Below are positions 3,173 through 30,955 of a DNA stretch of 64,000 nucleotides, in pieces. Source of the stretch: Fabrea salina (Eukaryota; Ciliophora; Heterotrichea; Heterotrichida; Fabreidae); contig JALIHJ010000023.1 of assembly GCA_022984795.1 (NCBI GenBank), positions 224,150 through 288,149 on the forward strand, written 5' to 3'. The translations under genes were made by a program, and so were the position numbers. The notes below the pieces were generated by a model. It did no database searches and was not told where the DNA came from. It saw nothing but the letters and a program-made list of their open reading frames with translations. Numbering within the stretch: the stretch's first letter is position 1; each line of letters starts with the position of its first letter.

Positions 3173-4207
3173 TTATAAAGAAAAGTCAATTAAAAGCTCC
3201 TCTCCTAATGCACAATTAATCAAAGGAAGCGACTCAGAAGCAAACTTGCCCGGAAAGTAGTGACAAGAAGGCACGTCCTGGGGAAGTATTCCTAAAGCTT
3301 TGTAAGCAGAAGCTATAAGTTCTGAACAAAAGTAGCTTTTTTCTTCGCCTGGAGTCACATTTTTGGACCTCCTGAGTATTTTGTTAGGAGTGAGTCTATA
3401 GTTTTTTCCTTGGACTTTGTCTATGAAGTCTTCGAACTTAGAAATGTTTTCTTGGTTGCGCACAATGTTGAGTTTCCTCAGAACTAATTTAGAGTATAAC
3501 AAGTGCCATTGGAAACTTAAAAAGTCGTCCCACAGCACTATTGCTACTCCTGTGGCTCCTGTGGCTTCTAGGAACCCTATCTTTTCTGAGGAGTACCGCA
3601 GAATCATTGCTACGTGGTCGTACTTGCTGCCTGTTAAACCTCTTTGTAACTTAGCTGTTAAGTTTTTGCTTTGGAACAGCAAAATATCTCCAGTACTAGC
3701 TTCGTTCCTGAACTGCTTTTCTGAGATGTAACTGTACTTCCAAAAGTTTTTTTTCAGCGACAAACTACTGCGCTTCTCTAGTTTTCCGAGAGAACACTGA
3801 ATATGGGGTTTGAGTGCTTCAACCCACCTAGCAATATCTTGGGGCTTAGCCTTGACATGGAATTTCCTTTTGGAGTTCGAAAGAACAATTATCAACTCTG
3901 TTGAACTTATCCTTTCTAAGTCTGTGTCTACTTGCTCAAAGTTTATGACAGCTGCAGGCAGAGTTTTAGACAAGTCGTGGAAGTACTTCAGAACCTTGTC
4001 TTTGAGCACAAAAAATCTCCACTGCCACCGTTTGAAAACTCCGGTGGACCTTTTTTTTAGCCAGCCTGATTTTGTGGGCAAACAGTCTTCAGAACACATA
4101 GAAAGACTTGAAGCAGGCGTGTTGGCTAAAGTAGACGACCTAAAGTTTTTCCTTGTGTAACTTACACTAACAGCATTGTTTTCAGAAACGAACTCGTCTA
4201 GGTTCAT
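3173..4207 (-). CDS. PH domain fused to NlpC/P60-like (permuted papain fold) domain
   Basis: 344 residues. A PH domain spans about residues 47-137 (SGWLKKR...RWQWRFFVLKD... ending in the conserved Trp of IARWVEAL). A second domain at ~168-325 looks like the permuted NlpC/P60-type (YiiX/YaeF-like) fold: GDILLF at 173-178, a His in YDHVAMI at 198, FLEATG at 211-216 and a Cys in FCSELIASAY at 294, in the His-before-Cys order of the permuted family. Such proteins are cysteine hydrolases or acyltransferases; the PH domain would bring it to phosphoinositide membranes. Substrate unknown. The start is separated by only 11 bp from the divergent TTLL gene. Confidence 0.75.
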   Translation of the reverse strand: MNLDEFVSENNAVSVSYTRKNFRSSTLANTPASSLSMCSEDCLPTKSGWLKKRSTGVFKRWQWRFFVLKDKVLKYFHDLSKTLPAAVINFEQVDTDLERISSTELIIVLSNSKRKFHVKAKPQDIARWVEALKPHIQCSLGKLEKRSSLSLKKNFWKYSYISEKQFRNEASTGDILLFQSKNLTAKLQRGLTGSKYDHVAMILRYSSEKIGFLEATGATGVAIVLWDDFLSFQWHLLYSKLVLRKLNIVRNQENISKFEDFIDKVQGKNYRLTPNKILRRSKNVTPGEEKSYFCSELIASAYKALGILPQDVPSCHYFPGKFASESLPLINCALGEELLIDFSL

Positions 4208-4218
4208 ATTTATTTCTT
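4208..4218. promoter_or_regulatory. 11-bp divergent intergenic spacer
   Basis: The whole gap between the start codons of the PH/NlpC gene (-) and the TTLL gene (+) is 11 AT-rich bases. Any promoter elements must lie here or inside the two coding regions. Confidence 0.6.
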
Positions 4219-5961
4219 ATGTTAAACTTCAAAAGAAGAAAAGATAGAAGCCACCCTAGGGACTTAGTTGACACTGAAAGAAGAAACTTAACAAAAAGCA
4301 CCTCTTCTAAAAAACTCCTCAGGTCCTTCGCTAACTTGCCCAAAGAAGTAGCTGCTACTTATCAGTTAACTCTTGAAGTCCGACCTAGTAAAATCCACTA
4401 TATGACCCACCGTGTAAGGGACAGAGGCTTCATTAGAAAAACTGAATCGCCTAAAAGAGACAAACCCAGAAGCACCTTAAAACTCCAGAAACTCAAAAGA
4501 CTCAAAAAATACTCTAGAGAACCCAGCCACTCTAAAAGCTTCAGTCAAGAAAACAAACCCCAACTCAACCTTAAGTCTAAAATAAACTTTGCAAGTCAAC
4601 TGGGGTGCTGCATAAACTTAAGCAATGGAGTCAAAGTGCTCAAGGAATCAAGGAACTTATACACCTACTATCTCCCAAAAGGCAACAACAGTCCAGTTGT
4701 TAGGGAGTGCTTCAACAGTAGGTGGTGGTGGTCTCATGTTAAGGAAGACGAAATGCTCAGTGCTAACTTGCTTTGGACCCAAACAACTAAGAAGCCCTTT
4801 GTTGAGCTTATAGAGTGCTTGGACTACAAACCTCAAAAACTCACCAGTGAAAGCTTGGAGTTTAACTTTGCAAGTGAAAGCTTAGTAAAGTCCGACTTGG
4901 GCTTTGAGAGTATTTTAAACAACCCTAACTTTGTGAAACTAGAACTCAACAACGCAGTAATGCCCAACAAACTCAAAGTCCACAATAAGCTAGAGTTCCA
5001 TAACTGCTTATCAGACAAAAAGTACCTGTACAGAAGCATGAAGGCTTACTACGAAGCTAAAGGTTTAAAAGTGTTTAACTACTTACCTGTTACTTTCCAC
5101 ATAGTGAACGGCCAAAATGACCCTTCGTTTGAGAAGTTTGAAAGCTTCTACAACAAGCTCAGCCAAAAGAACCAAAAGAACATTTGGATCCTCAAACCTG
5201 GCGAAAACACCAACAGAGGAAACGGAATACGTCTGTGCAACAACATCTCCCAAATAACTGAAGAACTCAAAAACAATCCTTTCCCCAGAACTGGAGCTCA
5301 CAGTTTCATCATCCAAAAGTACATCCACAACCCATTCCTGATCAGCAAACGGAAATTTGACATAAGGTGCTTTGCACTAGTGACCGTAGTGAACAATGTG
5401 ACCCAAGCTTACTTTTACGAAGAAGGGTACTTAAGAACCGCTTCTAAAAAGTACAACCCTAACCGAATTAACAATAAGTTCGTTCACTTAACTAATGACG
5501 CTGTGCAAAAGAAGTCCGAAGACTACGGAAAATACGAGCCTGGCAACAAGTTGTCCTACGGCGACTTCCAAAAGTACTTGAACTCCAAAGGACTCCAAGT
5601 TGAGTTTTTAAGCGAAATTCTTCCTAAAATGCGCGAAGCTGTCAAAGACACTATTGAGGCAACTTACGACAAACTCAACAGGAGAAACAGAGGGTTTAGT
5701 TTTGAAATATTCGGCTACGACTTTATGCTGGACACCAAACTCAAACCTTGGCTTATAGAAGTTAACACAAACCCTTGCTTAGAAACTTCGTGTTCTATAC
5801 TAGCCAGAATAATTTCTTCAATGCTAGAAAACGCTTTCCAAATAGCCATTGACCCACTGTTCCCACAACCTCTTTGCACACCTAAAAACCAAAACACTCG
5901 TAAACAACAAACTCCTTATAACAAATTCACTTTGGTGTTCCATGAACTTTCTAATACTTAA
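4219..5961 (+). CDS. Tubulin-tyrosine-ligase-like (TTLL) protein
   Basis: 580 residues. The N-terminal ~200 residues are basic and unrecognised; a Trp-rich NSRWWWSHV patch is at about 165. The TTL/ATP-grasp core follows: [15 protein letters not shown] at ~321, IIQKYI..P.L...[11 protein letters not shown] at ~365-388, [13 protein letters not shown] at ~427, [11 protein letters not shown] at ~497 and [14 protein letters not shown] at ~509, which supply nucleotide and Mg2+ ligands. TTLL enzymes add Tyr, Glu or Gly to tubulin tails in axonemes and cortical microtubules; the subtype cannot be read here. The stop TAA overlaps the stop of the convergent ARL1 gene (TTAA at 5958-5961). Confidence 0.9.
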
Positions 5962-6512
5962 TTCTTTAACAGGGTGATCAGCCAGTCCAAGCCCTCAGTG
6001 AAGCCCTCGCCTGTTTTGGCAGAGGACTTAAACACACTCCACTGTCTGTTTCTGAGAGTGTGGAGTCCTAACTTTTCACTAACTTCAGCATCACTCATGG
6101 CTCCAGGCAAGTCTTGTTTGTTAGCAAGCACCAGTAAAGGGACTCCGTTTAGGTCTTCTTCTTGAAGCATACTCATCATTTCTTGCTTTGCGACGTCTAT
6201 GCGGTCCCTGTCTGCACTGTCAACTACATAGATCACAGCGTTTGTGTTGGGGTAGTAACACCGCCAGTAAGGCCTGATGGTGCCTTGTCCTCCCAAGTCC
6301 CAAACTTGGAGTTTCAAGTTGTGGTAAGTTACTGTTTCTACGTTGAATCCGATTGCTGCTTAGACCTTACTGGGCACTGTTTCAATTACTTGGTTGAGCT
6401 GGAGCCTGTACAGCAGAGTTGTTTTGCCAGCGTTGTCAAGTCCTAAAATAAGTATTCTGATCTCACCTTTCCCGAACAAAGCAGAAAAGATCCGAGAAAA
6501 AACCATCCCCAT
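5958..6512 (-). CDS. ARL1: ARF-like small GTPase ARL1 (two exons)
   Basis: Exons 6512-6371 and 6355-5958 join by removing a 15-nt intron (6356-6370), giving 179 residues. The N-terminus is MGMVFSRIF with Gly2 for myristoylation. Motifs in order: GLDNAGKTT (P-loop), PTIGFNVET (switch I, completed only after splicing), [17 protein letters not shown] (switch [10 protein letters not shown] is typical of the ARF/ARL1 group), [10 protein letters not shown] and [11 protein letters not shown]1 acts at the trans-Golgi to recruit GRIP golgins. The start is 11 bp from the divergent ATG12 gene and the stop overlaps that of the convergent TTLL gene. ARF1 is the alternative, but the sequence leans to ARL1. 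Confidence 0.9.
6356..6370 (-). other. 15-nt intron in ARL1
   Basis: Sense sequence GTAAGGTCTAAGCAG, A at position 10. Removal restores the conserved PTIGFNVET motif, so it is strongly supported. Confidence 0.92.
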
Positions 6513-6523
6513 CTTACAATAAA
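6513..6523. promoter_or_regulatory. 11-bp divergent intergenic spacer (ARL1 / ATG12)
   Basis: CTTACAATAAA separates the ARL1 start (-) from the ATG12 start (+). The same 11-bp length recurs at 4208 and 19461. Confidence 0.6.
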
Positions 6524-6838
6524 ATGGAAGATGAGTTCTACGATAGTCACTCAGGAATTAACCCAATTAAGCGAGAAGACAAAGTAATAGTTTTACTGAA
6601 GCCAGTCGCAAGTGCTCCTATTCTCAAGAAAACCAAATTCCAAGTTTCGGGCAAAGAGCTTTTTGCAACCATTATAAACTTTGTAAAGACCCAAACTCGC
6701 ATTCAAGAAAACATCTTTTTGTACTGTAACAATAGCTTTGCACCTCCTCCAGACGCGGTTGTAGCTGACTTGTTCGAGTGCTTCAAAGTGGGCAAAGAAC
6801 TAATTATAAACTACGCAGTAGTTGAAGCTTGGGGTTAA
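6524..6838 (+). CDS. ATG12: Ubiquitin-like autophagy protein ATG12
   Basis: 104 residues. After a short acidic N-terminus the ubiquitin-like fold reads [19 protein letters not shown], a middle segment [17 protein letters not shown], then [18 protein letters not shown] and a terminal AWG. The SAPIL, SFAP.PD and final ..AWG motifs are diagnostic of ATG12, whose C-terminal Gly is conjugated to ATG5 through ATG7 and ATG10 and promotes ATG8 lipidation. The Gly is already exposed, so no processing is needed. It is 7 bp upstream of the next + strand gene. Confidence 0.93.
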
Positions 6839-6845
6839 TAAATAA

Positions 6846-7355
6846 ATGACTAAATCTGAGTCAAGCGGGTTCAAACAGTTTCTACTGGTGTTTTTGGTGC
6901 TAGGAATGTGCTTGTCTGGACTTATGCTCATCAGAATCTCTGAAAACTGGATAAGTTACAAAGAACTTCACTCAGTCACTAAGTGCACTTACCTGTACTT
7001 ACTCCAAGTTTGGGTGAGTTCTTGGTACCTGTGGAGTTTGGTTTCTTCTGCAGTGTTGCTGCTGTATACTTTTTTTCCAGCTTTGGTTTTTTCCAGAGTG
7101 TTTCATGTAAGTTCGCCGGCTTTCTTTGTGTGGACTGCTTTTTGTTTAAGCAGCTTCAGTGAGTTCTTGAGTTGTTGCGAAGCAGAAGAAGACGCCTGCA
7201 CTGAGTTCCTTGCTTACCAGTCGCCCACTAACTTTTTGGTTTTGATGTTTCTGGCGCTTTCAGCTACTGGAATTAGTTCGACTTATTTGCTGTACTACTT
7301 TGTAGTAACTTTAGATAGAAGCACTTACACTAACTTAACTTATTTGTCCCCTTAG
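6846..7355 (+). CDS. Four-pass membrane protein, unrecognised
   Basis: 169 residues with about four hydrophobic segments: near 10-28 (FLLVFLVLGMCLSGLMLI), 50-72, 90-104, and 128-150 (FLVLMFLALSATGIS...). A short acidic Cys-containing loop (SCCEAEEDAC) lies between segments 3 and 4. The topology is tetraspan-like, but the CCG motif of true tetraspanins is absent. The tail after the last segment is short. Function unknown; it is the third of three closely spaced genes in this stretch. Confidence 0.65.
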   Translation: MTKSESSGFKQFLLVFLVLGMCLSGLMLIRISENWISYKELHSVTKCTYLYLLQVWVSSWYLWSLVSSAVLLLYTFFPALVFSRVFHVSSPAFFVWTAFCLSSFSEFLSCCEAEEDACTEFLAYQSPTNFLVLMFLALSATGISSTYLLYYFVVTLDRSTYTNLTYLSP

Positions 7356-7401
7356 CGGTTCAGCTAATAAATAGGCAATTGTGGTACTAGAAGCAATAAT
7401 A

Positions 7402-7962: not shown

Positions 7963-7969
7963 TCTAAAA

Positions 7970-9403
7970 ATGGAGTCACAGGATAAGTTGGGAGTTAGTG
8001 AAGTTGTTTTTAACTACAACAAGCTTGCTATGGAGCATGTGTGGAACTCCAATACAGAGATGGCTCAGGACTTACTTGGAAGAGCTGAGTCCATACTCAA
8101 GAAAAACCAGTTGCCTGACTCCAACAGGCTTTGGCTTATTACGCTTAACAACTTAGCCACTTTGTATAAAAGGTCCAACTTGCCTAGAGTAGCTCTCAAA
8201 TACTTAGACAAGGCCCTGAACCACGACACTGCAGGCTCGGAAAACCTGATTAAGATTGCAGAGACTCACTTAAACATCTGTGCCTTGCGTTCTGAAATAG
8301 GGGAACACAAACTGGCACTTTCGCACTCAATAAAAGCCCTTAAGATCCTAAAGGCCAATTTTGAAAAAGAGCCTTCAGCTATAAACAGTTTAGCTATAGC
8401 ATACCACAACGCAGGTCTCGAAAGTCACTACTTAAACCAAACTCCACAGGCAGTTAAGTTCTTTAAAGAAGGTAAAGAGCTTGCTGCCCAGCACCTAGGA
8501 GAAAACCACCCACTCACACTCAACCTCAAAAACTACTACCAAAAGTTCAACTTGGATTCCAACCACAGGAAAAGCATCAACAACTCCCAAAAAGCAGTTA
8601 AGGTCAAAGCTTCCCAGTCAGCTTCCCCCAAACAAGAAGTTGAGTTGCCCCCACTTTCAGACGGGCCTCGTAAGAAAAGAGCCAAACCCAAAAACCAAAA
8701 AAGCTCAGTATACTCAAGCATTTGGCCCTCAAAAACAAGGTTCTTAACGGGCGAAAGACTGCAGCCTATGTTCTCAGTGCCTGTTAACAGGTACAAGAAA
8801 AAAAGAGTCCACCCTGTTAAGAAACTCATTAAAGAACTAGACGGAGTCCACCCCCGAGACACTCCTGAGTCTAAAGTCAAGTACAAAACTTACCAGAAAC
8901 AACTAGACACCCCCTTGCACCAAGTGCGTTCAATGGACACTCCTGAGTCTAAGGTTAAGTATAAACCCAGACAAGTAGACACTCCTCTGCGCCACAAAGC
9001 TGCTTCACTAATTCAGAAGTTCTGGAAAGCTTACAGAAAAAGGACTCCTTCCAAAAACAACATAACTGTAAAAAGCATAGACAGCCAAGAAGCTAAGCTT
9101 TACTTGAACAACTCAACTGGCAAAAAAAACAAAAGATACCAAAATTCCCCTAAAAAACCCAGAAAACTCAAACCTATTGAAGAGTCTGAACTGTACCTTA
9201 GAAAAGTTATTTTGATTCAGTCGTTCATCAGAAGGTACTTAGTTAGGAAGCGCTTCTCCAAAAAATACAACGCAGCTGTGATTATCCAGAAACACGTGAG
9301 GCGCTATACAACCAGAAAACTGTATTTAATCATTCGTGAAGCAATTATCTTCATACAGTCTCAGTTCAGAGAGTACCTTCATAGAAAACTAAAAAGTAAT
9401 TAA
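7970..9403 (+). CDS. TPR protein with C-terminal IQ motifs
   Basis: 477 residues from the ATG at 7970 (begins MESQDKLGVSE). Residues ~30-190 hold TPR-like helical pairs (ALKYLDKALNHD; ALSHSIKALKIL; AVKFFKEGKELA), recalling kinesin-light-chain-type repeats. A basic linker contains two copies of DTPESKVKYK at about 297 and 322. Four IQ-type calmodulin/centrin sites follow: IQKFWKAYRKR at ~346, IQSFIRRYLVRKR at ~415, IQKHVRRYTTRK at ~438 and IQSQFREYLHRK at ~460. This suggests a calcium-sensor-binding scaffold of the cortex or cilia. The stop overlaps the stop of the convergent NHL gene (TTAA, 9400-9403). Confidence 0.8.
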   Translation: MESQDKLGVSEVVFNYNKLAMEHVWNSNTEMAQDLLGRAESILKKNQLPDSNRLWLITLNNLATLYKRSNLPRVALKYLDKALNHDTAGSENLIKIAETHLNICALRSEIGEHKLALSHSIKALKILKANFEKEPSAINSLAIAYHNAGLESHYLNQTPQAVKFFKEGKELAAQHLGENHPLTLNLKNYYQKFNLDSNHRKSINNSQKAVKVKASQSASPKQEVELPPLSDGPRKKRAKPKNQKSSVYSSIWPSKTRFLTGERLQPMFSVPVNRYKKKRVHPVKKLIKELDGVHPRDTPESKVKYKTYQKQLDTPLHQVRSMDTPESKVKYKPRQVDTPLRHKAASLIQKFWKAYRKRTPSKNNITVKSIDSQEAKLYLNNSTGKKNKRYQNSPKKPRKLKPIEESELYLRKVILIQSFIRRYLVRKRFSKKYNAAVIIQKHVRRYTTRKLYLIIREAIIFIQSQFREYLHRKLKSN

Positions 9404-10233
9404 TCACTGGCAACTAAAGGGTGTGAACGCTGCCCACACAGAATATCGTGGTCCAGGCAGTTTTCAACCTGAGTTTCTTGGTGTATGTGCTCGCTGGGTT
9501 CTCCAGAGGTTTTAACCATGCTACTTACACAAACCATTTGTATCATCTGAGTGCCTAACTGGTTTTCAGACACGTTGTAGTAAGGCAGGGGAACGTAGGT
9601 GGAGTCTATTTCTTGGGCTCTTCTGCAAGCTCCGTTGAGCAGAGTCATTACTTGTTTGTTTTGCATGTCAATTAGTCGGACGTACTTGTTTCCTTCGTCT
9701 AGAACGTACATGTATCCCTGTGCATCTAAACCGATCAAAGAAGGAGATTTAAACCTTGCAGTTTGAAGGGGGCCGTCTTTGAAGCCTTGTTGTGTGCACT
9801 CTCCAGCGTACCTCCAGACTTCTTGTTTGTCTAAGTGAACTTCTCTGATGCAGTGGTTGCCTGAGTCAGAAACGTAGATTTTGTTTTGGAAGGTGCTTTG
9901 GTTAGTGTGTTCTTTGTAGAAAAACAGGGACTTAGGACTGTTGAACAAAGCGTTTAAAGCCGACCCATCCCTGTAGCCAGAGTAGTTAGGAGTCCCTGAC
10001 ACTCTGAAGAACTTAGCTCTTTTGGCTTCAGTGAACTCAACTGAGTTTAGGGTGTGTGAGTTCTGATCTGCAGTCCAGAAGTTGCCAACTTCGTCAACAT
10101 GGTGTCCGAAACTCCAGTAAAAGCCCCTACTTGAACTTGAGTTGGCGTTGAAGTCTTTGTAAAAAGACCCGTAGTACCCTGGAATCTCGTAGTTGGACCC
10201 TTTTACAATACAAATAAGTGCTAACAAAATCAT
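9400..10233 (-). CDS. Secreted NHL-repeat protein
   Basis: 277 residues from the ATG at 10233. The N-terminus (MILLALICIVKG) is a short signal-peptide-like segment. NHL-type β-propeller units follow: KSLFFYK...KIYVSDSGNHCIREV at ~100-135 and SLIGLDAQGYMYVLDEGNKYVRLID at ~165-195, with an ALNALFNSP segment between repeats. The Cys-containing tail is unrecognised. Likely extracellular or lumenal; ligand unknown. Its start codon overlaps, on the opposite strand, the start codon of the RCC1 gene (CATG at 10231-10234), and its stop overlaps that of the TPR/IQ gene. Confidence 0.75.
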   Translation of the reverse strand: MILLALICIVKGSNYEIPGYYGSFYKDFNANSSSSRGFYWSFGHHVDEVGNFWTADQNSHTLNSVEFTEAKRAKFFRVSGTPNYSGYRDGSALNALFNSPKSLFFYKEHTNQSTFQNKIYVSDSGNHCIREVHLDKQEVWRYAGECTQQGFKDGPLQTARFKSPSLIGLDAQGYMYVLDEGNKYVRLIDMQNKQVMTLLNGACRRAQEIDSTYVPLPYYNVSENQLGTQMIQMVCVSSMVKTSGEPSEHIHQETQVENCLDHDILCGQRSHPLVASD

Positions 10234-10234
10234 G
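10231..10234. promoter_or_regulatory. Overlapping divergent start codons (CATG)
   Basis: CAT on the + strand is the ATG of the NHL gene (-) and bases 10232-10234 are the ATG of the RCC1 gene (+). There is no intergenic DNA at all if both starts are right. Confidence 0.6.
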
Positions 10235-11443
10235 GACAAATCAATTATAAAGCTCTACAATATATGCTCACGAGGAGTTAACTTTTTTGGTCAACTAGGA
10301 CTATCCAACAACTACCAGTCCACACAGAAGTTCACAGAGATTCCTTCGCTCCAAAAGTGCGAAGCCAAAAGCATCCATGCAAGTTGGACCCAGTCGCTTT
10401 GTTTGCTGGATGACAACAGGTTGCTGATTTGGGGGTGGCCTTTAGACGTGCGCTCACAAATGCAAGTTCTTTGGATGCTTAAAGACTACACAAAACTAGC
10501 TAAGTTCATACAGCGCTACTCACCCTTTCCTTGGATAAGTCTTAGAGAAGGCACTGACTTTCCACAGCAAGAAACAGAGCCTCCTGGACACTTAAGAAAG
10601 GTAAGTGTTGGAGGGGCTTTTGTTCTAGCTTGCGACACTGAAGGAAGGGCTTACGCCTGGGGCGACAACCACAGAGGCCAGTGCGGCTCTGGAGACTCCA
10701 GATACAGACTAGAACCTAACCTTGTGCACTCTTTGCTAGACGAATTAATAGTTGATGTAAAGGCAGGGTACCAGCACTCGCTTTTCTTAGGAAGTGACGG
10801 AAGTGTGCACGGGTGTGGAAGGTGCACTCACTATGCTTACTCAAGTCCGCCGATTTCTAACATATCAAGCCACGGGTTCTCTACAGCAACTATAAAAGTG
10901 CCTGTGGACGGAGTGACTAAAATAGCAGGTGGAAACAACTTTTCAGTTTTTTTGAGAGAAGACGGAAACGTTTTTGCAGTTGGGAAAAACGAATACGGGC
11001 AGTGCGGCCAGGTAAGCACTACTGAAGTGGTGGAGTTCCCTGAAATGATTTACTTCCCTGAAAAAGTAGTTGATGTGGTTTCAGGAACCAAACACACACT
11101 AGCTTTGGGACAGAGTGGGCAGTTGTATGGGTTCGGTTACAGAATGCACGGACAGATAGACGGCTACAGAAGAGGGATCTACCAAGAACAGTGCAGCCCA
11201 ATTCCCATAAAGATTCCTTCGCAACACAAGGTCAAAAAAGTGTTTGCAGGTTTCGACAGGTCAGCTGTAATTCTGGAAAACGGGGAAGTTTGGGTCTGGG
11301 GAGGAGACGACTTCAGTTACCTAGACGGAGAGTACTACGAAAAGATGACACTTATAAACAACGACCTTCCGAACCCCTTGGACCAGGTAGAAGAAGTAGC
11401 TTTAGGGTTCATGCATACACTAGTGATGACTTCTTGTTCCTAA
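10232..11443 (+). CDS. RCC1-repeat β-propeller protein
   Basis: 403 residues from the ATG at 10232. RCC1-type repeats are visible: GVNFFGQLGLSNN at ~13, YAWGDNHRGQCGSGD at ~146, VFAVGKNEYGQCGQ at ~248, LYGFGYRMHGQIDG at ~300 and VWVWGGDDFSYLDG at ~354, each preceded by a V..V..G..H/F motif (VDVKAGYQHSLFL, VDVVSGTKHTLAL). Such propellers serve as nucleotide exchange factors or E3/kinase adaptors; no extra domain is present, so a role is not assignable. The start codon overlaps that of the NHL gene. Confidence 0.85.
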   Translation: MDKSIIKLYNICSRGVNFFGQLGLSNNYQSTQKFTEIPSLQKCEAKSIHASWTQSLCLLDDNRLLIWGWPLDVRSQMQVLWMLKDYTKLAKFIQRYSPFPWISLREGTDFPQQETEPPGHLRKVSVGGAFVLACDTEGRAYAWGDNHRGQCGSGDSRYRLEPNLVHSLLDELIVDVKAGYQHSLFLGSDGSVHGCGRCTHYAYSSPPISNISSHGFSTATIKVPVDGVTKIAGGNNFSVFLREDGNVFAVGKNEYGQCGQVSTTEVVEFPEMIYFPEKVVDVVSGTKHTLALGQSGQLYGFGYRMHGQIDGYRRGIYQEQCSPIPIKIPSQHKVKKVFAGFDRSAVILENGEVWVWGGDDFSYLDGEYYEKMTLINNDLPNPLDQVEEVALGFMHTLVMTSCS

Positions 11444-11448
11444 TAATA

Positions 11449-13131
11449 ATGGGTAAATGCATCTCAAAAAAGGAGCAGACTTTTGAAATAGACTCTATTG
11501 ACTTGATTATGAGGAAGTGTGGTAGGGTGCTTAAACTCAGGAACGAAGAAGTCAAAAGACTAAGACTGAGGCAAAGAATCCACTTCCCAGAAGACTCTGC
11601 TATAGGGAGACTTGACGACGCGAGCTTAATAGTGTGTGGAGGTTCTGAAGGCAGTGAGTACACTAAGTGCGCTTACAGAGTTTACTGCACTCAGGGTGAT
11701 GTTGAGAGACTCTGTGACTTGCCTTTTGGAGTTGAGTTAGGGAACTTGTACCCAAAAGGAAACTGGGTATACTTGGTAGGTGGCCTTTCAAAGACTTACG
11801 GAGGAGTTCCTTTAACTAGGTTTAACCTTGAAGAGAACTACTGGGAAGTATTCCACGAAGACTTCAATAAAGACCAGATAAAGTGTGAGGAACTTGTTTT
11901 AAGCGACCTGGTCTGCGCAGGAACTGCCATGGTTGAAGGCAGTGTTTACTTAGTTGGGGGGAAATTTTCCAGAAAACAAACTTTCAGTAAACAGATTTTT
12001 AAAGTAGACTTAGAAAACTTCAAAATGACTCCAGTAGAAGTGGAACTGCCGTTTGAGATCTCCTCGCCAATATGCGGAGTAGTTCAAAAAAGTATTATTA
12101 TAGTTGGGGGAGTAACTGACAATATTCCTAACGGACAACCTTTGAGACTGAAGTTCCTTCCTAAGCCAAGTTTAAAGCTTCTCAAAAGAAACAGCACTGT
12201 GCTTAGTTGCAACTACCCTCCAATCACTAGTGCTTCAAGAGTTATCTTTGTTTCACTCCCAACCATAGAAGTCTTTGACGCAGAGCTCAACAAGTGGCTG
12301 CTTCCCAACCAATTCATCAGAAGGAAAATCAAAGCCTGTTCAAAAAGAGAACCCAGTATAATACAGAGATCCCCAGACTACAGAATCAACGAAGAAGCTG
12401 AACAAGAACTTCCAGACACCAAACAAATTGTTGTCGAAAGCGCTGAAGACTCCAACGATAAAGGCCACCAACAAGTTACAAGTCCTTTCAGCAACATCTC
12501 CAGCATACCTCCCAAAAATCCACAGTTAGAAGTAAACCCTGAAAGCAGCCAAGAATCCCAAGCCAGTGTCAGAAACTATTGGACTGACTACTCAAGTAGC
12601 TCTGAAAGCATCCTAGTAATGGACAGGTATACCAGTCCTTCAGAAACGAGCTGCGATCATAACCTAGCTGAGCCTAGCAACTTCACAGACAACTATTTGT
12701 TTGCAGAGAACCCTTTATACAAAGGGTCCAAAAGCACCAACAAGCTTCTAGAAAACTCTAGAGAAAACAGCTTTTGCAAAACTGAAGACCTGATAAAACT
12801 AGTAGACTTGGTGGCTGAGTCTTTTAACATCCCTCCTCTTCCAACTAGTTCAATAGACCAGTTATTCAACGACTTGGAGATCAAAGACCAAGTTAGTGCT
12901 TCGGACCTAAAAACTATCCTTGGCAGTTTACTTCAAGAAACCACTTACTCTTTAAAGGACTCAATAAACCTTTTGCACAGATTTCACGAAGCTTTAAACA
13001 AGCCAGAACTAGAAGACCAAGATTTAAACAGTATTTTGGAACCCTACAGAACTGGAACTGCACTTAAGAAGGATAAATGCATCGAACTGATTACTAAGGC
13101 AGTAGAGTTTGTAACTGCTAAGTATAATTAA
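11449..13131 (+). CDS. Kelch-type protein with myristoylation-like N-terminus
   Basis: 560 residues from the ATG at 11449, five bases after the previous stop. The N-terminus MGKCISKK fits dual lipidation (Gly2 myristoylation, Cys4 palmitoylation). Kelch-like blades with GG pairs occur at ~68 (IVCGGSEG), ~107 (YLVGGLSKTYGG), ~167 (YLVGGKFSR) and ~218 (IIVGGVTD). From ~300 the chain is Ser/Glu-rich and probably disordered; the last 120 residues are helical (ASDLKTILGSLLQET). A membrane-tethered scaffold is the likely role. The stop overlaps the stop of the giant convergent gene (TTAA at 13128-13131). Confidence 0.75.
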   Translation: MGKCISKKEQTFEIDSIDLIMRKCGRVLKLRNEEVKRLRLRQRIHFPEDSAIGRLDDASLIVCGGSEGSEYTKCAYRVYCTQGDVERLCDLPFGVELGNLYPKGNWVYLVGGLSKTYGGVPLTRFNLEENYWEVFHEDFNKDQIKCEELVLSDLVCAGTAMVEGSVYLVGGKFSRKQTFSKQIFKVDLENFKMTPVEVELPFEISSPICGVVQKSIIIVGGVTDNIPNGQPLRLKFLPKPSLKLLKRNSTVLSCNYPPITSASRVIFVSLPTIEVFDAELNKWLLPNQFIRRKIKACSKREPSIIQRSPDYRINEEAEQELPDTKQIVVESAEDSNDKGHQQVTSPFSNISSIPPKNPQLEVNPESSQESQASVRNYWTDYSSSSESILVMDRYTSPSETSCDHNLAEPSNFTDNYLFAENPLYKGSKSTNKLLENSRENSFCKTEDLIKLVDLVAESFNIPPLPTSSIDQLFNDLEIKDQVSASDLKTILGSLLQETTYSLKDSINLLHRFHEALNKPELEDQDLNSILEPYRTGTALKKDKCIELITKAVEFVTAKYN

Positions 13132-19460: not shown

Positions 19461-19471
19461 TTAAAAATAAC
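19461..19471. promoter_or_regulatory. 11-bp divergent intergenic spacer
   Basis: TTAAAAATAAC is the entire gap between the start of the giant coiled-coil gene (-) and the WD40 gene (+). It is the third case of exactly 11 bp. Confidence 0.6.
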
Positions 19472-22453
19472 ATGAATCCTCAGGAGCTCGAAAAACCAAC
19501 TTTGCAAGTGCCTGAGTCTTTAGTCGAAGTAGTCAACAAACTAGACACAAAGAACAACTACATGATTTACCACTGGAACTCACTTAACATTCTAAAAGCA
19601 GTAAGTCTGAACTCTATATTTAAACTGAAACGTAACTTTAAAGCTAAACAAGAAATGACCTTAGCTGAGTTTTGCAAAGCTTTGCTTAGTGTAGTCAAAC
19701 ACAACCCAAAAGACTCAGTGTACTTAGTTGCAGGGGCAGTTTCTCTTTTTGAAGAGATTACTACTAGCGACACCATTAACTGGAAAAGCTTAAGTGACTG
19801 GGTTCTAAACCGAACAATGAACAGCCAAAACATCATAGACAAAGCCCCTACTAAACTAACTGACCACACTTCCGAACCCACTCTTATTTTCGGAGCTAAA
19901 GAAGAGTACTTCTTCAGACTGAAAGCAAGTTACAAGTTCTACGATAAACAAAGACACCCCAAAGTAATTAAAAAAGCAGTTTACTCACCCTCTACTAAAA
20001 AAATCTTTTCAGTGGACGACTCAACCGAAAAGTTGTTTATGTACAACAACAAAGCTAAGTTTGAAAAGTTCATTAAACCAAGGAGCTTGCGTAGTTACGA
20101 TGTAGTGGTGGTTGACTTTGCTTGGAGTGAAGCCCAAAAAAGACTAGGAGTGCTTTCACAGGACAGAACCCTTAAGTTCATGGACTACGAAGACGAGTTT
20201 TCCTTCCAAAAGTCTATAGACTACAGAAACCTAACCAACCACCTCCAAACCAAAATATGGCACATAGAACCTAGTATCTGGCTAACTACTGACCAAACCC
20301 ACTTGGTGCATGAGTGGAGTATCGAGAACGAAAACTTTTTTAGTTGGCCCCAGTTGCACCAAGCTTCAATAGTTGCTATAGTTCAGATACAAAGGGACTT
20401 AGTAGCTACTTCTGCATTGGACAGGTCCATAGTAGTGTTTAACTTTCTTTCAAAAGCCATTATCACCAAATTCCACTTGCAGGAAATCAGTGCTTACAAA
20501 ATAGCTTACTCTGAAGACTTGAAGTTGCTGGCGTCAGCATCCTTCAGCTCAATAATATCAGTGTGGACTCTAGACAACCTAAGTGACGTAGGGCTCTACA
20601 AAGAACTCCACGGACACACTAAGATAGTAAGTGCTTTGCATGTAGTAAAGGGCACTCCTATTTTGGTTTCTTCTGACGAGTCTGGTTTAGTTAAAACGTG
20701 GGACTTAAGGCACCCTCAGTGCCTGCAAAGCATCAAACTCCGCAAAAGCAACATAAGTCACTTCTTAAACGTTCCTTCAGTGAGTTGTTTGTGCGGAGTA
20801 GGGAGCAGACTTTACTGGCTTGAGTACACTTACGAGGTTAAGTACAACGCCAACGGAATAAACGTAAGGTCAATTTAGAACACTGAAGTTTACTCCAAAG
20901 AACTGACTTACGTCAGGTCCAGCCAAGAACTCATAGTTTCTACCCAAAAGGACATAAGGGTCTTTGATTTTCACTCAGGCAAAAGACTAAGAATTCTAAC
21001 AGACGTGCTTTCTAAAGGCACTGAAATCAGCAAACTCTCTAAGAAGTGCTACGACACCAGGTTAGTTGTAGCTGGAGTTAGTGGAGAAGTTAGTGAAGTT
21101 CAGCACATCAACGGAGTTATTACTGAAAATTACAAACTGCACACAGAAGAAGTAGTTTTTTTAAGTCACTCTGAAGAGTACGAAGTTTTACTTAGTGTAA
21201 GTATTGACGGTTGCTTTAAACTTACAAAAGGTTACCAAGAAACTCTTAAGTCAATGAGTAACTTGCAGGAAACTGCTATCTGCCATGCAAGTTGTTCGTG
21301 GAGCCAAGGAGTCTTTGTGACTGCCGGAGTGGACTCTAAAGTAGTTATTTGGAACTTCCTGAACTGCTCTCCTGAAGGATGCATACAGTTTCTTGGTGAA
21401 ATAGTTGCTTTGTGCATAGCTGAAGAGTTTCCTTTACTAGGGGTTTGTGACTCTAAAGGAAGAATTAGTGTTTTTAACACTTTAAATACCAAAAGGCCCT
21501 TGTGGTGTTTAGTTCTGCAGGAGGTTCCTTTAGTTCTGAGTTTTTATTCTTATAAAAGCACAAGTGAGCACGATACTACTGCGTTGTCAAAGCCTTTAAC
21601 TGACAACTGTGAGCTCTATGTGGGAGCTGACAACGGGTACATTTACGTTTGGGACTTGTCCAAACTTTTAGTGAACTTAAAGTCCACCAAAAACAACCTT
21701 AACTACTTTATGCACAAAAAAGCAAACGTGAACTGCAGAGTTTACAAAGAATTCATTAAACTCAACTTAGTTAAGTGCCAAACCCCACAACTAACAAACG
21801 CTGCTCCAAAAGCAAAGTGGAACTCCGAAACAGACACTGTGAAAGACTTGAAAGTCCACAAAGTCACTGAAAAACTTGTCTTTGTGCTAGGTGCACATGG
21901 AACCTTGAAGATCTGGAACTGCGAAGGCAAGTGCAGAGCCCAATTAAACCTTAGGGAAAACTTTCCAGACTACTGGGAGCTTAAAGTAAACACTTTTGAG
22001 TACAGGTACAACTTGTACAAAAAGGCAGAGTGCCTTTTAACAAAACTCAAAGCTTCTAAAGACCCATTGAGTCCCCAAAAAAGCACCGACCGACTAGTAG
22101 ACTCCTCCAGCTTACTAGACATTAGTTACTCAGTGCCCAAACAACCCAAACCCCAACTTAAAGCTTCCCAGTCAGGTTTGTCTTTAAGACAAATGGAAGC
22201 TAGGAAAAGGGACAGCCACTTCAGTAAAAAACTAGTGTTTCCTGACTTAGGCGAATTCACTTTTAAGAACTTTGTGAAACTCGAAAACATAAAAACTCCC
22301 CAGTCCACCAAAAGAAGCACCCCAGCAAACAACTTTTCTGTGCAAAAAAGGTCTTCGAGTGTACTCAACTTAAAAAGAAGCTACCAAATAAGGAACTACA
22401 CTCCCTTGAAACCACCCCAAAGGGCCTCTGTTAAATTTAAGTTCCGCAAATAA
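19472..22453 (+). CDS. Large WD40 protein, WDR49/WDR64-like (two exons)
   Basis: Exons 19472-20863 and 20879-22453 join across a 15-nt intron, giving about 988 residues. The frame has no ATG upstream close enough to be credible; ATG 19472 (MNPQELEKP) is used. The first ~110 residues end in an EF-hand-like SLFEEITTSDTINWKSLSDW, as found before the WD repeats in WDR49/WDR64 proteins. WD40 blades run to about residue 640 (GRISVFNT, YIYVWDLSKL, TLKIWNCEG); the C-terminal ~200 residues are basic and disordered. The family is known from cilia. Without splicing it would be read wrongly as two genes. Confidence 0.8.
20864..20878 (+). other. 15-nt intron in WD40 gene
   Basis: GTAAGGTCAATTTAG with A at position 10. 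Its TAG would otherwise end the frame; removal continues the WD40 repeat frame for 525 more codons. Confidence 0.9.
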
Positions 22454-23891: not shown

Positions 23892-24044
23892 TCACTTTTT
23901 AAGCAACTTGACTTCGTTAAGCAGTTGGTCAATCTTGTTTTCAGTGGCGTGGTTTGCTCCTCTGATGTTGGGCAAGAAGTAACTTGCAGTGAGTCCTGTG
24001 CCAACAGCACACCCTACCAAAAACCTAATTGTTCCTTTTAACAT
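23892..24044 (-). CDS. 50-residue single-pass membrane microprotein
   Basis: A small open frame, ATG at 24044, stop TGA. It begins MLKGTIRFLVGCAVGTGLTA: a short basic start, one hydrophobic segment (~7-24) with small residues and Gly, then YFLPNIRG and a charged helix with heptad-like spacing (IDQLLNEVKLLKK). The layout resembles small inner-membrane mitochondrial subunits. Its start is only 2 bp after the stop of the ATPAF1-like gene on the same strand, which fits the local gene spacing. If TGA were read through, three codons and a TAA follow. Function unknown. Confidence 0.55.
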   Translation of the reverse strand: MLKGTIRFLVGCAVGTGLTASYFLPNIRGANHATENKIDQLLNEVKLLKK

Positions 24045-24046: not shown

Positions 24047-24619
24047 TTATCCATTTACTCCAAACCTTTCAAAGTAACTCTTCATGAACTGGTCTGTTTT
24101 GAACCTGTCAGGTTGGTTATTGAACACGTGGACCCAGTCTTCGTAGAGTTCTCCTTCGATGTAGTAAGCTAAAAAGGCTTTCATGAGGACTTCTGCTTCA
24201 GTTTTAGCTATTTTGAAGTCAATGATGTCTCCCCTCACAGGAACTACTCCTTTCTTGGGAATGAGTTCGTCAAACAGCGTGAGCACAAAGTAAGGAGTCG
24301 AGCTTTCTGGGTTGCGTTTGTAGTCTTCTAAGTATGTGAACAGGTTGCTTTTGCCCTGTGTTTGGCAAAGCAACACAAAGTGACCCCCTTTACGAGTCAA
24401 AGGAAATATGAAGAAGGGAGAGGCCTGGGACCTCCTCTGGAACACTTCGAACTGGTGGGCTGTGATGAGAGTTGACACGTTCTGTGGTCTTTTTAGGTGG
24501 TAGTCGTTCCAAATAGCTTTGATTGTAGAAGAGTTTTCTTTTTCAAACAAAGTCATTTTGACGATTTCCCTGAGCTTTCTAGGACAAGGGTAAGTAAACG
24601 CAAAACTGCGCCTCATCAT
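24047..24619 (-). CDS. ATPAF1: F1-ATPase assembly chaperone Atp11/ATPAF1-like
   Basis: 190 residues, or 189 if the second Met is used. Family features: FFIFPLTRKGGHFVLLCQTQ at ~68-87, the LEDYKRNP motif at ~95-102, then a FDELIPKKGVVPVRGDI stretch at ~115-131. Atp11 binds the free β subunit of mitochondrial F1 and prevents aggregation during assembly. The N-terminus has Arg and aromatic residues and may include a short targeting signal. The protein is shorter than yeast Atp11, lacking most of the N-terminal extension. The divergent FAM227-like gene starts 8 bp away (11 bp from the second Met). Confidence 0.82.
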   Translation of the reverse strand: MMRRSFAFTYPCPRKLREIVKMTLFEKENSSTIKAIWNDYHLKRPQNVSTLITAHQFEVFQRRSQASPFFIFPLTRKGGHFVLLCQTQGKSNLFTYLEDYKRNPESSTPYFVLTLFDELIPKKGVVPVRGDIIDFKIAKTEAEVLMKAFLAYYIEGELYEDWVHVFNNQPDRFKTDQFMKSYFERFGVNG

Positions 24620-24627
24620 TTATAAGT

Positions 24628-25641
24628 ATGTCTTTGAAAAAGTCTCTTTCGGACAAAACTTTCCTAACCAACACTACCTTGCCAAGCTCCACAAAGGCCA
24701 GCAAAGAGTTTAAAACTCAGCAGGTTTACAGAATAGAAGACGCTTTGCCTTCGCAAAGTCTAGCAGTGGAATGCGAACCCCTGCCTGAAAATGTCAACAT
24801 CAAAAGAGTCATTGACAACATAACTAAGGGCCGGAGAAACAAGCACCTTTGGTTCAAGTACTTCACTTCAACTGAAAACATCGCAATCATCAGTGACCTT
24901 TTCTGGCTAAGTATATGCAGACTGGTTAGACAGAACGAGTTCACAAGCTTTGAAGAAGTTCTTTTAGCAAGGATTTCACGTCACTACTTAAACCTGTTTA
25001 CAGGCATCGACAAAAATTACCGGGACGAGTTTTATAAAAGTTACTGCGACAACATAGCCCAGGCTGTGTTCTTTTCAATGTTTTTTGCGTTTCCAAAGTC
25101 CAGAAGTTTAGTTCTGACTGAAGACTTTTTAAAGGACTTCATTGACCTAGTAAGTGGAGAACTCACTGGGTTTCCTGTGTGCAACAACGCCTACAAACAC
25201 TGGGTGTTTGACTTAGGAGCAGGCAATATTATGGAGAAAGTAGTTAAAAGCCAGTCCAAGCCCCTCTGGAAGTCAGCTTCTGGAAAACTCAGAATTAGGT
25301 ACACTCCTGTGATGGAGAGGTACCTCTGCACTCACAAGTACCAGTCGTGCAACCAAATCAAAAGCTGGAACTTAAGAGTTTCCAAAAGAGACTTAGCAGC
25401 CGAAAAGCAAACCCACCAAAGAATGAAAAGCTACAGAAAACAAGCTAACGACAACGCAAGGGACACTCTGACCAAGTTCAAGGACTTCGAAAAATACAAC
25501 AAAACAGTTGACAAAAAACTACTAGAAAACAAAAAGTACTCCCTTAGAATATCTAAGTTCATGAAGAACCGGTCCAAAGAAATACTTACTCGCAATCCCC
25601 ATGAGTACAGCAACTACTTAGCTAGTTTGAAGAACTTATAA
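24628..25641 (+). CDS. FAM227-like protein (FWWh-type domain)
   Basis: 337 residues. The central part (~85-180) reads LFWLSICRLV, then RISRHYLNLFTGI, RDEFYKSYCDNIAQAVF and FFAFPKSR, matching the pattern of the FWWh domain of FAM227 proteins (aromatic pair, helix, YRD.F.K, AQA.F..F....P.S). The C-terminal ~100 residues are Lys-rich and helical. The family occurs in ciliated organisms; biochemical function unknown. TAA at 25641 is followed after 7 bp by the next + strand gene. Confidence 0.75.
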   Translation: MSLKKSLSDKTFLTNTTLPSSTKASKEFKTQQVYRIEDALPSQSLAVECEPLPENVNIKRVIDNITKGRRNKHLWFKYFTSTENIAIISDLFWLSICRLVRQNEFTSFEEVLLARISRHYLNLFTGIDKNYRDEFYKSYCDNIAQAVFFSMFFAFPKSRSLVLTEDFLKDFIDLVSGELTGFPVCNNAYKHWVFDLGAGNIMEKVVKSQSKPLWKSASGKLRIRYTPVMERYLCTHKYQSCNQIKSWNLRVSKRDLAAEKQTHQRMKSYRKQANDNARDTLTKFKDFEKYNKTVDKKLLENKKYSLRISKFMKNRSKEILTRNPHEYSNYLASLKNL

Positions 25642-28018: not shown

Positions 28019-28026
28019 TTAACTAA

Positions 28027-29181
28027 CTAAGGAAGTAAAACAGCAATGTAGTGAGAAGGCAACTGCTGGATGTTCTCAAACAATGCTTTAACTGCAGAAG
28101 TAGTTTTGTCAGCTTCGATGTTTTTGCCAACTCTGTACAAAGGCAAGTTCTTCCCCCCCACACAAACGTGCGACCTAGACCCTTGGAACTTGAACTCGTG
28201 TCTTAACTCTACCCGGCAGTAGTCTGCTAGCACCTGCACTATCAGTCCTAAGTAGCCTAGAGAACTGCTGACTTGTTCGTCCTTTTGGTAAAAGTTTATG
28301 CTGTCGTTGATTTCTTTGAGTCCAGTTAAGATGCTTGAAGTTTTGAAGACTCCGTAGAGTTCGTGCCACAGTTTAATTCTGCGGGAGTGTGTGAGTCTTT
28401 CTTTGAGGCTTAGGTGTTCTCTGTCTTGCTTGGCCGTTTTGGCCCTTTCTGAGTACTTGCGTTTGTGTGCGTTTAGTAGTTGAGTAGCTACTTCTTGCTG
28501 TCCTTTGATTTCTTTGACTAGGCTTTTGGAGCCTTTGACTAGTTCAGTTTTGTTTTTGCTGGCTGAGTTGAGTCCAGCGACGTGTTCTTGGAGTTCACTG
28601 GTTTTCTTTTTCAGTGGAAAAAAGGACTTTTTGTCTTGCAAAACGTTCCACAACTGGTCTTTGAGGACTTTGATTTCAGAAAAGTTCTGGGCTAGTTGTT
28701 TCCTGACTTCCAGGATTTTTTTGTACTTGTGTTGTATTTTGGAAAAGTTGACTCTGCGGGAAGTAGCTTCTTGGGTAGCTAAGAGTTTAATTTGGAAAGA
28801 ACAGTTCCTAGCTAAGTGAGTGAAGTTGTCTGAAAACTCCTCAGTAGTGAAGAAGCCTTCTTCCGAAAATTCTATAAAGCACACAGGGAAGTCAAAAGAC
28901 TCCAGACACTGCAGACTTTCACACACAAAGTGCATCTTTTTGGAGTCAACAAATGTTTCAAGCAAGCACTCTTCGCCTGAGTAAACCTTCAAAGACACTG
29001 GAAACACGTCTTTGGGGATCTCCAAGTTGCGCCAAGTAGGGTTGCAAGTTAAAGAGTGTTCTGTTTGGTAGAAAAAAGTAGCACTTTCAAGTAAGAGTTT
29101 CACTCGGGCAGGGGGGCCTGGCAAGTTCCTAACTGCTATGCAAGTCATTTGTTTCCAAGAACAGTCTAGTTCCAGCGACAT
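28027..29181 (-). CDS. UVRAG/Vps38-like subunit of PI3-kinase complex II
   Basis: 384 residues. The first ~130 residues are β-rich and C2-like. A coiled coil spans ~145-270 (ILEVRKQLAQNFSEIKVLK...). The C-terminal domain resembles the BARA-type fold of UVRAG/Atg14: SSLGYLGLIVQVLADYCRVELRHEF at ~308-332, GSRSHVCVGG..LPLYRVGKN at ~336-357 and ALFENIQQL near the end. Vps38/UVRAG joins Vps34, Vps15 and Beclin 1 to make PI3P on endosomes. Atg14 is the alternative, but the C2-like start and GSRS motif favour UVRAG. It starts 7 bp from the divergent Kri1 gene. Confidence 0.65.
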   Translation of the reverse strand: MSLELDCSWKQMTCIAVRNLPGPPARVKLLLESATFFYQTEHSLTCNPTWRNLEIPKDVFPVSLKVYSGEECLLETFVDSKKMHFVCESLQCLESFDFPVCFIEFSEEGFFTTEEFSDNFTHLARNCSFQIKLLATQEATSRRVNFSKIQHKYKKILEVRKQLAQNFSEIKVLKDQLWNVLQDKKSFFPLKKKTSELQEHVAGLNSASKNKTELVKGSKSLVKEIKGQQEVATQLLNAHKRKYSERAKTAKQDREHLSLKERLTHSRRIKLWHELYGVFKTSSILTGLKEINDSINFYQKDEQVSSSLGYLGLIVQVLADYCRVELRHEFKFQGSRSHVCVGGKNLPLYRVGKNIEADKTTSAVKALFENIQQLPSHYIAVLLP

Positions 29182-29188
29182 TTATACT
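29182..29188. promoter_or_regulatory. 7-bp divergent intergenic spacer
   Basis: TTATACT is the whole gap between the UVRAG-like (-) and Kri1 (+) start codons. Confidence 0.55.
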
Positions 29189-30955
29189 ATGTCGCAGAAA
29201 CTAAAACTCTTCGAAGAAAAAGACACCCATTCCACTCTGAAAGTCAACAAAAAGTTCGCTGAGAAGTTTGAAGCCAGAAAAAGAAGAGAAGAAATCCAAA
29301 GAATCACCGAAACAACCCAAGAGCTTGAAGAGTCCGAGGAGTCCAGCGAAGACTCCGAAGCCGAGCTACTCACCCAAAAAGCCAACTCCAAGTTCCTAAA
29401 AGCCCTTTCAATGATCAAAAACAGAGACCCCCGACTCAAAGACCCCAACTTCCAGTTGTTTTCTGACTCAGATTTTGAGGACTCACAAGAAGCCCAAAAA
29501 CCACAAAACAAAAAAATGACTTACAAAGAAGTAGTTACTAAAAACCTACTTGGAAACCAAGTAGACAACGCACCCACCGAAGTCCAGAAGCAAGAGTCCA
29601 TGAAAAACGACTTTTTGCAAGCAGTGAACGAGTGGGAAACCCAAGACTCAAACAACCAGTTGCTAAAGCCCCGAGAAAAGACTCCAGAAGAACTCAACAA
29701 AGAAAAACAAGAACTAGAAGTTTTACTGCAACAAGAAAAAGACTCCAGTGAACTCAAGAAACTCAAAAACTACTGGGAACAAGCCGAAACCCCCAACGAA
29801 GAGTTCCTCAAAAAGTTCTTTTTGAAAAAGATGTGGAAAGACGAAGACACCTTACTTACCTACGACGAAATAGTTGACCAAGAAGACCAAATCCGAGAAG
29901 AAGAATTCGACAACTTCGAGTCAAGTTACAACTTTAGGTTTGAAGAAGAAGGCTTTGACAAAATACAAACTTACTCCAGACAAGTCGAAGGCAGTGTGAG
30001 GCAGAAGCCCGAGAAAAGGAAAGAACAAAGACAGGCCAAAAAAGAAAGAAAAGAACTCGAAAAAGTTAAAAAAGCAGAAGAAATCAAACGACTCAAAAAC
30101 CTAAAAAAACAAGAAATCATGAAACGAATGGAACTAATCAACAACTATGCTGGGAAAACCCTGAAACTCAATGAAGAAGTTTTTGAAGAAGACTTTGATC
30201 CCCACAAATACGACCAACTCATGAAGGAGAACTTTGACGAAAACTACTACCAAGAGTCCGAGTCCTGCGCTTCTGACTCCAGACCTGAACAAATCGAAGA
30301 AAACCAAGTAGACATTGAAAAAATCGAAAAGTCCGCTGAACTACCCCAAGCTGTAAGGGAAGGAGGCTCAAACGACTGGTGGCTCTGTGACGGCTGCCAA
30401 AACGGAATACCTGAGAACTCTTGGAGGTTTGACTGTAGTGAGTGCGACAACTTCACATTGTGCAACACCTGCAGAACCATTGTGTCGCACTCCCACCGAC
30501 TCAAAAAACTGAAAGTGCCAATAGGCTGCAAACCCCCAGACCAAGTAGACTTTGTGTACTGCGACGGGTGCAACAAAGACATTACCTCCAAACTAAGGTA
30601 CGACTGCAGTGAGTGCCAGGATTTCAGTGTATGCGAAGACTGCCAACTAACAATAGAACACCCTCACAAACTCAAGTCAGCACAGGACTTGTGGGAGGAG
30701 TACTACAACTTGGACTACGAGGAACTGATTGAAGACATTCCGTGCAAGTTCCGCTACAGACAAGTAGAACCTAACGACTACGGACTTGACGTTAACGAAA
30801 TCTTGGAGTGGGACGACAAAACCCTTAACTCTTACATAGGCATCAAAAAACTAGCCCCTTACCGCGAAGACCAAGGAAAGACTTCGATCAACAAACTAAA
30901 AAAGAAAAAGAAGTACCTTAAAACTTTAACTTACCAACAAAAACACACAGAGTAA
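29189..30955 (+). CDS. KRI1: Ribosome-biogenesis protein Kri1 with two inserted ZZ zinc fingers
   Basis: 588 residues from the ATG at 29189 (MSQKLKLFEEKD). The acidic/coiled N-terminal half contains the Kri1 core (NYWEQAETPNEEFLKKFFLK; a LLTYDEIVDQEDQIREEE stretch; EEVFEEDFDP). The Kri1 C-terminal domain is at ~510-575 (YYNLDYEELIEDIPCKFRYR, NDYGLDVNEIL, KKLAPYR). Between them, at ~397-505, lie two tandem ZZ-type fingers: CDGCQ...FDCSECDNFTLCNTC...H.H and CDGCN...YDCSECQDFSVCEDC...H.H. Kri1 is a nucleolar factor for 40S maturation. The ZZ insertion is not part of the yeast or human protein as I know it. The tail is Lys-rich. Confidence 0.85.
   Translation: MSQKLKLFEEKDTHSTLKVNKKFAEKFEARKRREEIQRITETTQELEESEESSEDSEAELLTQKANSKFLKALSMIKNRDPRLKDPNFQLFSDSDFEDSQEAQKPQNKKMTYKEVVTKNLLGNQVDNAPTEVQKQESMKNDFLQAVNEWETQDSNNQLLKPREKTPEELNKEKQELEVLLQQEKDSSELKKLKNYWEQAETPNEEFLKKFFLKKMWKDEDTLLTYDEIVDQEDQIREEEFDNFESSYNFRFEEEGFDKIQTYSRQVEGSVRQKPEKRKEQRQAKKERKELEKVKKAEEIKRLKNLKKQEIMKRMELINNYAGKTLKLNEEVFEEDFDPHKYDQLMKENFDENYYQESESCASDSRPEQIEENQVDIEKIEKSAELPQAVREGGSNDWWLCDGCQNGIPENSWRFDCSECDNFTLCNTCRTIVSHSHRLKKLKVPIGCKPPDQVDFVYCDGCNKDITSKLRYDCSECQDFSVCEDCQLTIEHPHKLKSAQDLWEEYYNLDYEELIEDIPCKFRYRQVEPNDYGLDVNEILEWDDKTLNSYIGIKKLAPYREDQGKTSINKLKKKKKYLKTLTYQQKHTE

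Follow-up and report, generated by a model that had tools for sequence, protein, structure and literature searches.

A 64-kb stretch of Fabrea salina DNA (contig JALIHJ010000023.1; hereafter the window, meaning the whole stretch analysed) carries pairs of divergent genes whose start codons lie only a few base pairs apart, and in three of these pairs the gap is exactly 11 bp. The initial annotation read the recurring length as a hint of a spacing rule, such as a short shared initiator. We consider it probable that these gaps reflect the extreme compaction of a gene-dense heterotrich macronuclear chromosome, and not an 11-bp rule. The analysis used 48 gene models built by hand from standard-code open reading frames (ORFs) across the whole window, six of them with inferred 15-nt introns. 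The Pfam scan covered 30 of the 48, with the WD40 gene g16 represented by its first exon alone.

Gene junctions across the window

The 12 divergent start-to-start gaps of the gene-dense 56 kb measure -2, 7, 8, 11, 11, 11, 25, 27, 28, 32, 70 and 166 bp. The start of the plus-strand gene at the 27-bp gap (g03) is uncertain, and a thirteenth gap, of 1048 bp, borders the subtelomere. A length of 11 bp is therefore found in 3/12 gene-dense pairs (3/13 with the subtelomeric pair included), and no fixed spacing between divergent starts was found in a range running from -2 to 166 bp. Counter-examples are the divergent spacers of 32 bp at 38116-38147, of 28 bp at 50182-50209, where the plus-strand gene is Rtf2, and of 25 bp at 54380-54404.

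The three 11-bp gaps themselves were recovered as first described. The spacer at 4208-4218, ATTTATTTCTT (A/T 10/11), separates g05 (3173-4207, minus strand), an ORF matching a PH domain (Pfam, 6.5e-08) and a C92 peptidase-like domain (Peptidase_C92, 1.7e-08), from a TTLL gene (4219-5961, plus strand; Pfam TTL 1.7e-61). At 6513-6523, CTTACAATAAA (A/T 9/11) lies between ARL1 (5958-6512, minus strand; Arf 9.1e-76 and alignment to yeast ARL1), with a 15-nt intron at 6356-6370, and ATG12 (6524-6838, plus strand; Pfam APG12 4.3e-26). The third, TTAAAAATAAC at 19461-19471 (A/T 10/11), lies between g15 (13128-19460, minus strand), an ORF of 2110 aa, and g16 (19472-22453, plus strand), whose first exon gives WD40-type matches and which has an inferred 15-nt intron at 20864-20878. 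No Pfam match was found for g15, and its description as a coiled-coil protein is a label from the initial annotation.

A fourth 11-bp case had been proposed upstream of the ATP11/ATPAF1-like gene g19 (24047-24619, minus strand; Pfam ATP11 7.3e-25), and it was not sustained. This gene opens with ATG ATG, and 11 bp is obtained only with the second Met. The first Met (24619) is better supported, being preceded at -4 to -1 by ATAA, the commonest tetramer at that position (9/47 starts), and it leaves an 8-bp spacer, TTATAAGT (24620-24627), before the FWWh-domain gene g20 (24628-25641, plus strand; Pfam FWWh 5.8e-25), which we take to be FAM227-like. The 7-bp gap reported at 29182-29188 (TTATACT) was confirmed between g22 (28027-29181, minus strand), an ORF with no Pfam match, and the KRI1 gene g23 (29189-30955, plus strand; Pfam Kri1_C 9e-28, Kri1 1.2e-17), in which an in-frame ATG at 29138 would give a 44-bp overlap with g22. 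Moreover, one tight pair had been overlooked. The first Met of the NHL-like gene g12 (9400-10233, minus strand; weak NHL match, 2.2e-04) is at 10233 and that of the RCC1-like gene g13 (10232-11443, plus strand; Pfam RCC1-like domain 2.9e-58) is at 10232, so that by the first-Met rule the two have a common CATG at 10231-10234 and a gap of -2. Judged from sequence, this is likely to be a true overlap of divergent start codons.

Close packing is seen at every type of junction. Coding sequence makes up ~97.5% of positions 1-56122 (g03 omitted, overlaps counted twice), and gaps of 12 bp or less occur at 13/21 codirectional, 6/12 divergent and 10/12 convergent junctions, with some codirectional gaps of just 1-2 bp (TA, TA, AT, A). 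In four of the 12 convergent pairs the stop codons overlap by 4 bp: at 5958-5961 (ARL1 and TTLL), 9400-9403, 13128-13131 (g14 and g15) and 55475-55478 (g45 and g46). The overlap is TTAA in three pairs and TTAG in the last, and the gap of -4 recurs because both tetramers contain a stop codon on either strand. The 3′ untranslated regions (UTRs) of these convergent genes must run into the opposite gene. At tight junctions RNA would have to start near the ATG or within the neighbouring gene. The earlier argument that tight divergent pairs leave no room for a core promoter thus stands as an inference, but not as a peculiarity of divergent genes, given how many codirectional gaps are equally short. 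Trans-splicing was considered as an explanation and is thought unlikely, because the 1-2-bp gaps leave no intergenic room for an acceptor.

A 50-aa ORF (23892-24044, minus strand) starts 2 bp beyond the stop codon of the ATPAF1-like gene. It has no Pfam match, and its hydrophobic N-terminus suggests that it is a real small protein.

A/T-rich leaders at start codons

An A/T leader touching the ATG is clearly a non-random feature of this window. All four positions from -4 to -1 are A or T at 32/47 starts, versus 9/277 internal in-frame Met codons and 61/923 other ATGs in positions 1-56000; the Giardia-like feature of an A/T block adjoining the ATG is therefore present. The frame of g03 (ATG 2156) is not continuous and this gene was excluded from the leader counts, while its gap of 27 and a convergent overlap of -14 stay in the gap lists. 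TAA stands immediately 5′ of the ATG, in frame, at 15/47 starts, where 6.8 are expected from column composition (P 5e-05), and at 14/923 other ATGs. The most enriched of 1195 hexamers were TAATAA, present in 11/47 upstream regions (0.42 expected), and TTATAA, present in 9 (0.54 expected). Near the ATG (-15 to -1) TAATAA is oriented, with 14 sense and 2 antisense occurrences, although TATAA (8 and 8) and TTATAA (7 and 7) are divided equally between the strands.

Where the upstream gap is 12 bp or less (25 genes), positions -10 to -1 have an A/T content of 0.85, and each of the five 10-nt bins covering -60 to -11 falls within 0.57-0.65. We also considered a TATA box displaced into the coding sequence of the neighbour. 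This was rejected, as the TATAA counts do not point to a remote box at a set position: 0 in -60 to -46, 1 in -45 to -31 (0.51 expected per bin), 3 in -30 to -16 and 8 in -15 to -1. Other A/T motifs such as TTAAAT are raised in -30 to -16 (6 versus 0.23), partly through genes with longer gaps.

Compaction probably produced the tight divergent pairs as follows. Intergenic DNA has been pared almost to zero at every junction type, with most starts retaining an A/T-rich leader of about 4-10 nt that touches the ATG, often with TAA or ATA just before it. Divergent neighbours would then settle approximately 7-12 bp apart because their starts keep only this short leader; the A/T spacer would serve both starts and 11 bp would be one likely value. 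Each gene probably starts its RNA separately, within its leader or slightly 5′ of it and commonly within the coding sequence of the neighbour, and very short 5′ UTRs would result. The leader would act as the recognition signal for the initiating ribosome and perhaps also for the polymerase. The gaps, the leaders and the compaction are seen in the sequence itself; the positions of the RNA starts and the selective reason for the compaction are our inference from this arrangement.

The recurrence of 11 bp and competing explanations

The chance of repeated gaps was estimated by smoothed resampling with a jitter of 2-10 bp. The probability that any value occurs at least three times was 0.064-0.27 for the 13 divergent pairs and 0.058-0.16 for 11 pairs, with the uncertain and subtelomeric pairs dropped. 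For 11 itself to occur at least three times the probability was 0.0015-0.020, a figure to be read in the knowledge that the value was chosen post hoc. The other junction types also repeat: among codirectional gaps 7 bp occurs in 4/21 (probability of any fourfold value 0.11-0.22), and among convergent gaps -4 occurs in 4/12, a stronger repeat than either of the others (P 0.012-0.059). We also built a two-leader model, in which pairs of A/T-run lengths were drawn from the 35 starts outside tight pairs and summed. The commonest sum was 11 (9.2%), followed by 12 (8.6%) and 10 (7.9%). Eleven is thus a natural and likely value when two A/T leaders abut, although this account is incomplete.

Four points weigh against the compaction reading. 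The two-leader model gives a probability of 0.068 for three equal sums among six, so that three equal gaps in the six tight pairs are somewhat unlikely, and the probability is <0.02 if 11 is prespecified. Secondly, the tight pairs do not fit a simple model of two intact leaders placed end to end: the complete four-base leader is present at 5/12 tight-pair starts versus 27/35 elsewhere (Fisher P 0.034). Thirdly, the A/T runs of the six tight pairs are 8+2, 0+6, 0+0, 10+0, 6+1 and 5+1; in five of the six, one start has a run of 5-10 and its partner one of 0-2, and the CATG pair has 0 and 0. Lastly, the gene models are hand-built from ORFs, with Pfam applied to only 30 of them. Given the pairing of one long run with one of 0-2, and the rarer intact tetrad, the tight spacer may be a single A/T block unequally divided between two starts.

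Such a division would be produced by a single bidirectional A/T initiator with a preferred direction, leaving one leader intact and the other weakened, with no fixed length. The rarity of the complete leader in tight pairs fits this explanation, as do the five pairs in which the partner run is broken by G/C 0-2 nt from the ATG. The Giardia work, in the portion available (PMC3792122), describes a somewhat symmetrical AT-rich consensus that sometimes fires both ways, but its authors also conclude there that adjacent one-way initiators may account for the pairs. The numbers here are small, the observation was made post hoc, and TAATAA is oriented even though the shorter motifs are not. We regard a bidirectional initiator as unlikely, while noting that it survives better than the other rivals.

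A more far-reaching proposal would make the A/T leader both polymerase initiator and ribosome context, with near-leaderless mRNAs genome-wide, divergent partners sharing one A/T spacer that tends towards about 11 bp in length and, at CATG, each promoter lying inside the coding sequence of the other gene. Taken in its entirety, this is speculative and we would give it a small chance.

A fixed 11-bp spacing could be set by a short common initiator or by how far apart two divergently oriented start complexes dock. In its favour are three exact matches among 12 gaps, in unrelated gene pairs. Had 11 been specified beforehand, three matches would be mildly unusual, both by resampling (0.0015-0.020) and in the two-leader model (0.012). 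Moreover, 11 bp is approximately one turn of the DNA helix. Set against this, the remaining three tight gaps differ in length (-2, 7 and 8 bp), any triple is expected with a probability of 0.058-0.27, and codirectional gaps, where a common initiator is impossible, repeat in a similar manner. Nor do the spacers have a motif to offer. The three 11-mers have no common sequence beyond A/T richness and resemble one another no more than their own shuffles do (P 0.55), which led us to reject a common motif. None of the three contains a palindromic motif (self-complementarity 4, 6 and 4 of 11), and the near-ATG TAATAA is oriented rather than symmetric. Neither the spacing rule nor the short common initiator suggested by the initial annotation was therefore borne out, and we consider a fixed spacing very unlikely. 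The triple 11 is accounted for about equally well by a spacing rule and by extremely dense packing of gene starts that are short and A/T-rich, and a special 11-bp rule does not stand on this window.

It is equally improbable that the starts are partly miscalled, with true ATGs downstream or upstream and the small gaps an artefact of the first-Met rule: homology anchors the N-terminus of few proteins (ARL1 and Rtf2), but the A/T tetrad is far commoner at first Mets than at internal ones, the next Met often lies tens of codons into coding sequence, and only 2/48 models (g23 and g36) have a further in-frame ATG 5′ of the start selected. Among the six genes at 11-bp gaps, ARL1 is the only one whose alignment begins at its first residue, which pairs with residue 1 of yeast ARL1. 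The Pfam domain of ATG12 starts at residue 20 and the protein has no second Met; the other four starts follow the first-Met rule, with the next Met at codon 29-62. For Rtf2 the profile match begins at residue 1. The CATG pair speaks for miscalling in that the alignments reach neither N-terminus and the start context of g12 is poor (GTCC, A/T 1/4); the next Met is codon 175 in g12 and codon 77 in g13.

Three further choices shaped the models. The strand of g25 was set to minus on the basis of a CCT motif, the start of g36 was fixed at 41140 from its similarity by eye to g35, and ORFs 31640-32005 (plus strand) and 50188-50517 (minus strand), which overlap these model choices, were set aside. In g03 (2156-2726, plus strand) the frame set by ATG 2156 differs from that of the long open stretch starting at 2181. 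A 15-16-nt GT-AG intron was sought between the two and none was found; the mismatch may reflect a misassembly or an atypical start.

Chromosome type and known compact genomes

The window has several hallmarks of heterotrich ciliates. All six inferred introns are 15 nt long (6356-6370, 20864-20878, 33347-33361, 35820-35834, 42376-42390 and 43763-43777), as are ~95% of heterotrich introns according to the text available from PMC11441545. The ARL1 intron alone is backed by homology, through a gapless alignment to yeast ARL1 across the junction, and the other five by restoration of the frame. Stop codons are TAA in 32 genes, TAG in 12 and TGA in 2 (n=46). Apart from g03 no retained model contains an internal stop, and the standard code fits. 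Arrays of GGTGTTAG (60929-61377, plus strand) and TTAGGGTG (63750-64000, plus strand, reaching the window end), both rotations of TGTTAGGG, are present. They are telomere repeats of the CCCTAACA type, of which the Blepharisma repeat is a permutation in the sections available from PMC9942806. Together, the 15-nt introns, standard code and TGTTAGGG arrays indicate that the window belongs to a macronuclear chromosome of a heterotrich ciliate. The region 56123-64000 is gene-poor and subtelomere-like, with two WD40-repeat genes (57171-58208 and 59038-60021), the second of which passes into unrelated sequence near 59990; the array at 60929-61377 lies internally within it.

In 15-nt introns, short intergenic DNA and telomere repeat, the window resembles the compact heterotrichs Blepharisma stoltei, Stentor coeruleus and F. 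salina, as far as the published descriptions seen in part go (PMC9942806, PMC11441545). The first of these extracts portrays Blepharisma as rich in genes, its intergenic regions short and both its introns (15-16 bp) and its untranslated regions tiny; it differs in reading UGA as tryptophan and in being 66% A/T, where the window uses the standard code and is ~58% A/T. In the part of the Loxodes paper available, short and tightly distributed 5′ UTRs are assumed, as in other ciliates (PMC11441545), and an extract on Paramecium calls its intergenic regions extremely small and sometimes absent (PMC12716044).

Similar economy is known outside the ciliates. In the account available to us (PMC3792122), the 5′ UTRs of Giardia are mostly very short, RNA starts there at an AT-rich element, and close neighbours fire in opposite directions. 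It is an unrelated lineage, and its element is tied to the mapped RNA start, whereas ours is defined relative to the ATG. Transcripts of Encephalitozoon cuniculi often initiate in the upstream gene (PMC3629993, in part), and nucleomorph genes have little intervening space and sometimes overlap (PMC8887012, in part). Microsporidia and nucleomorphs are reduced parasites or endosymbiont remnants, while the window looks like a ciliate somatic chromosome. The accounts of Giardia, microsporidia and Paramecium show that tight arrangements of this kind occur in other compact genomes.

Searches for further sequence added little. IMG/VR protein scans with the TTLL protein, the 2110-aa protein and a protein phosphatase returned nothing usable from the same organism; a single remote phosphatase relative, L001, showed 36% identity and was left unused. 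No RNA families (Rfam gathering thresholds, no rRNA) or tRNAs (searched with bacterial settings) were found in the window.

In summary, the window shows how little intergenic DNA a eukaryotic chromosome can apparently keep. What remains is a few A/T bases per start and the joint stop codons of convergent genes, and start codons may overlap as well. Given mapped RNA starts, the window would be a clean test case for where the core promoter lies when there is no space for it between genes.

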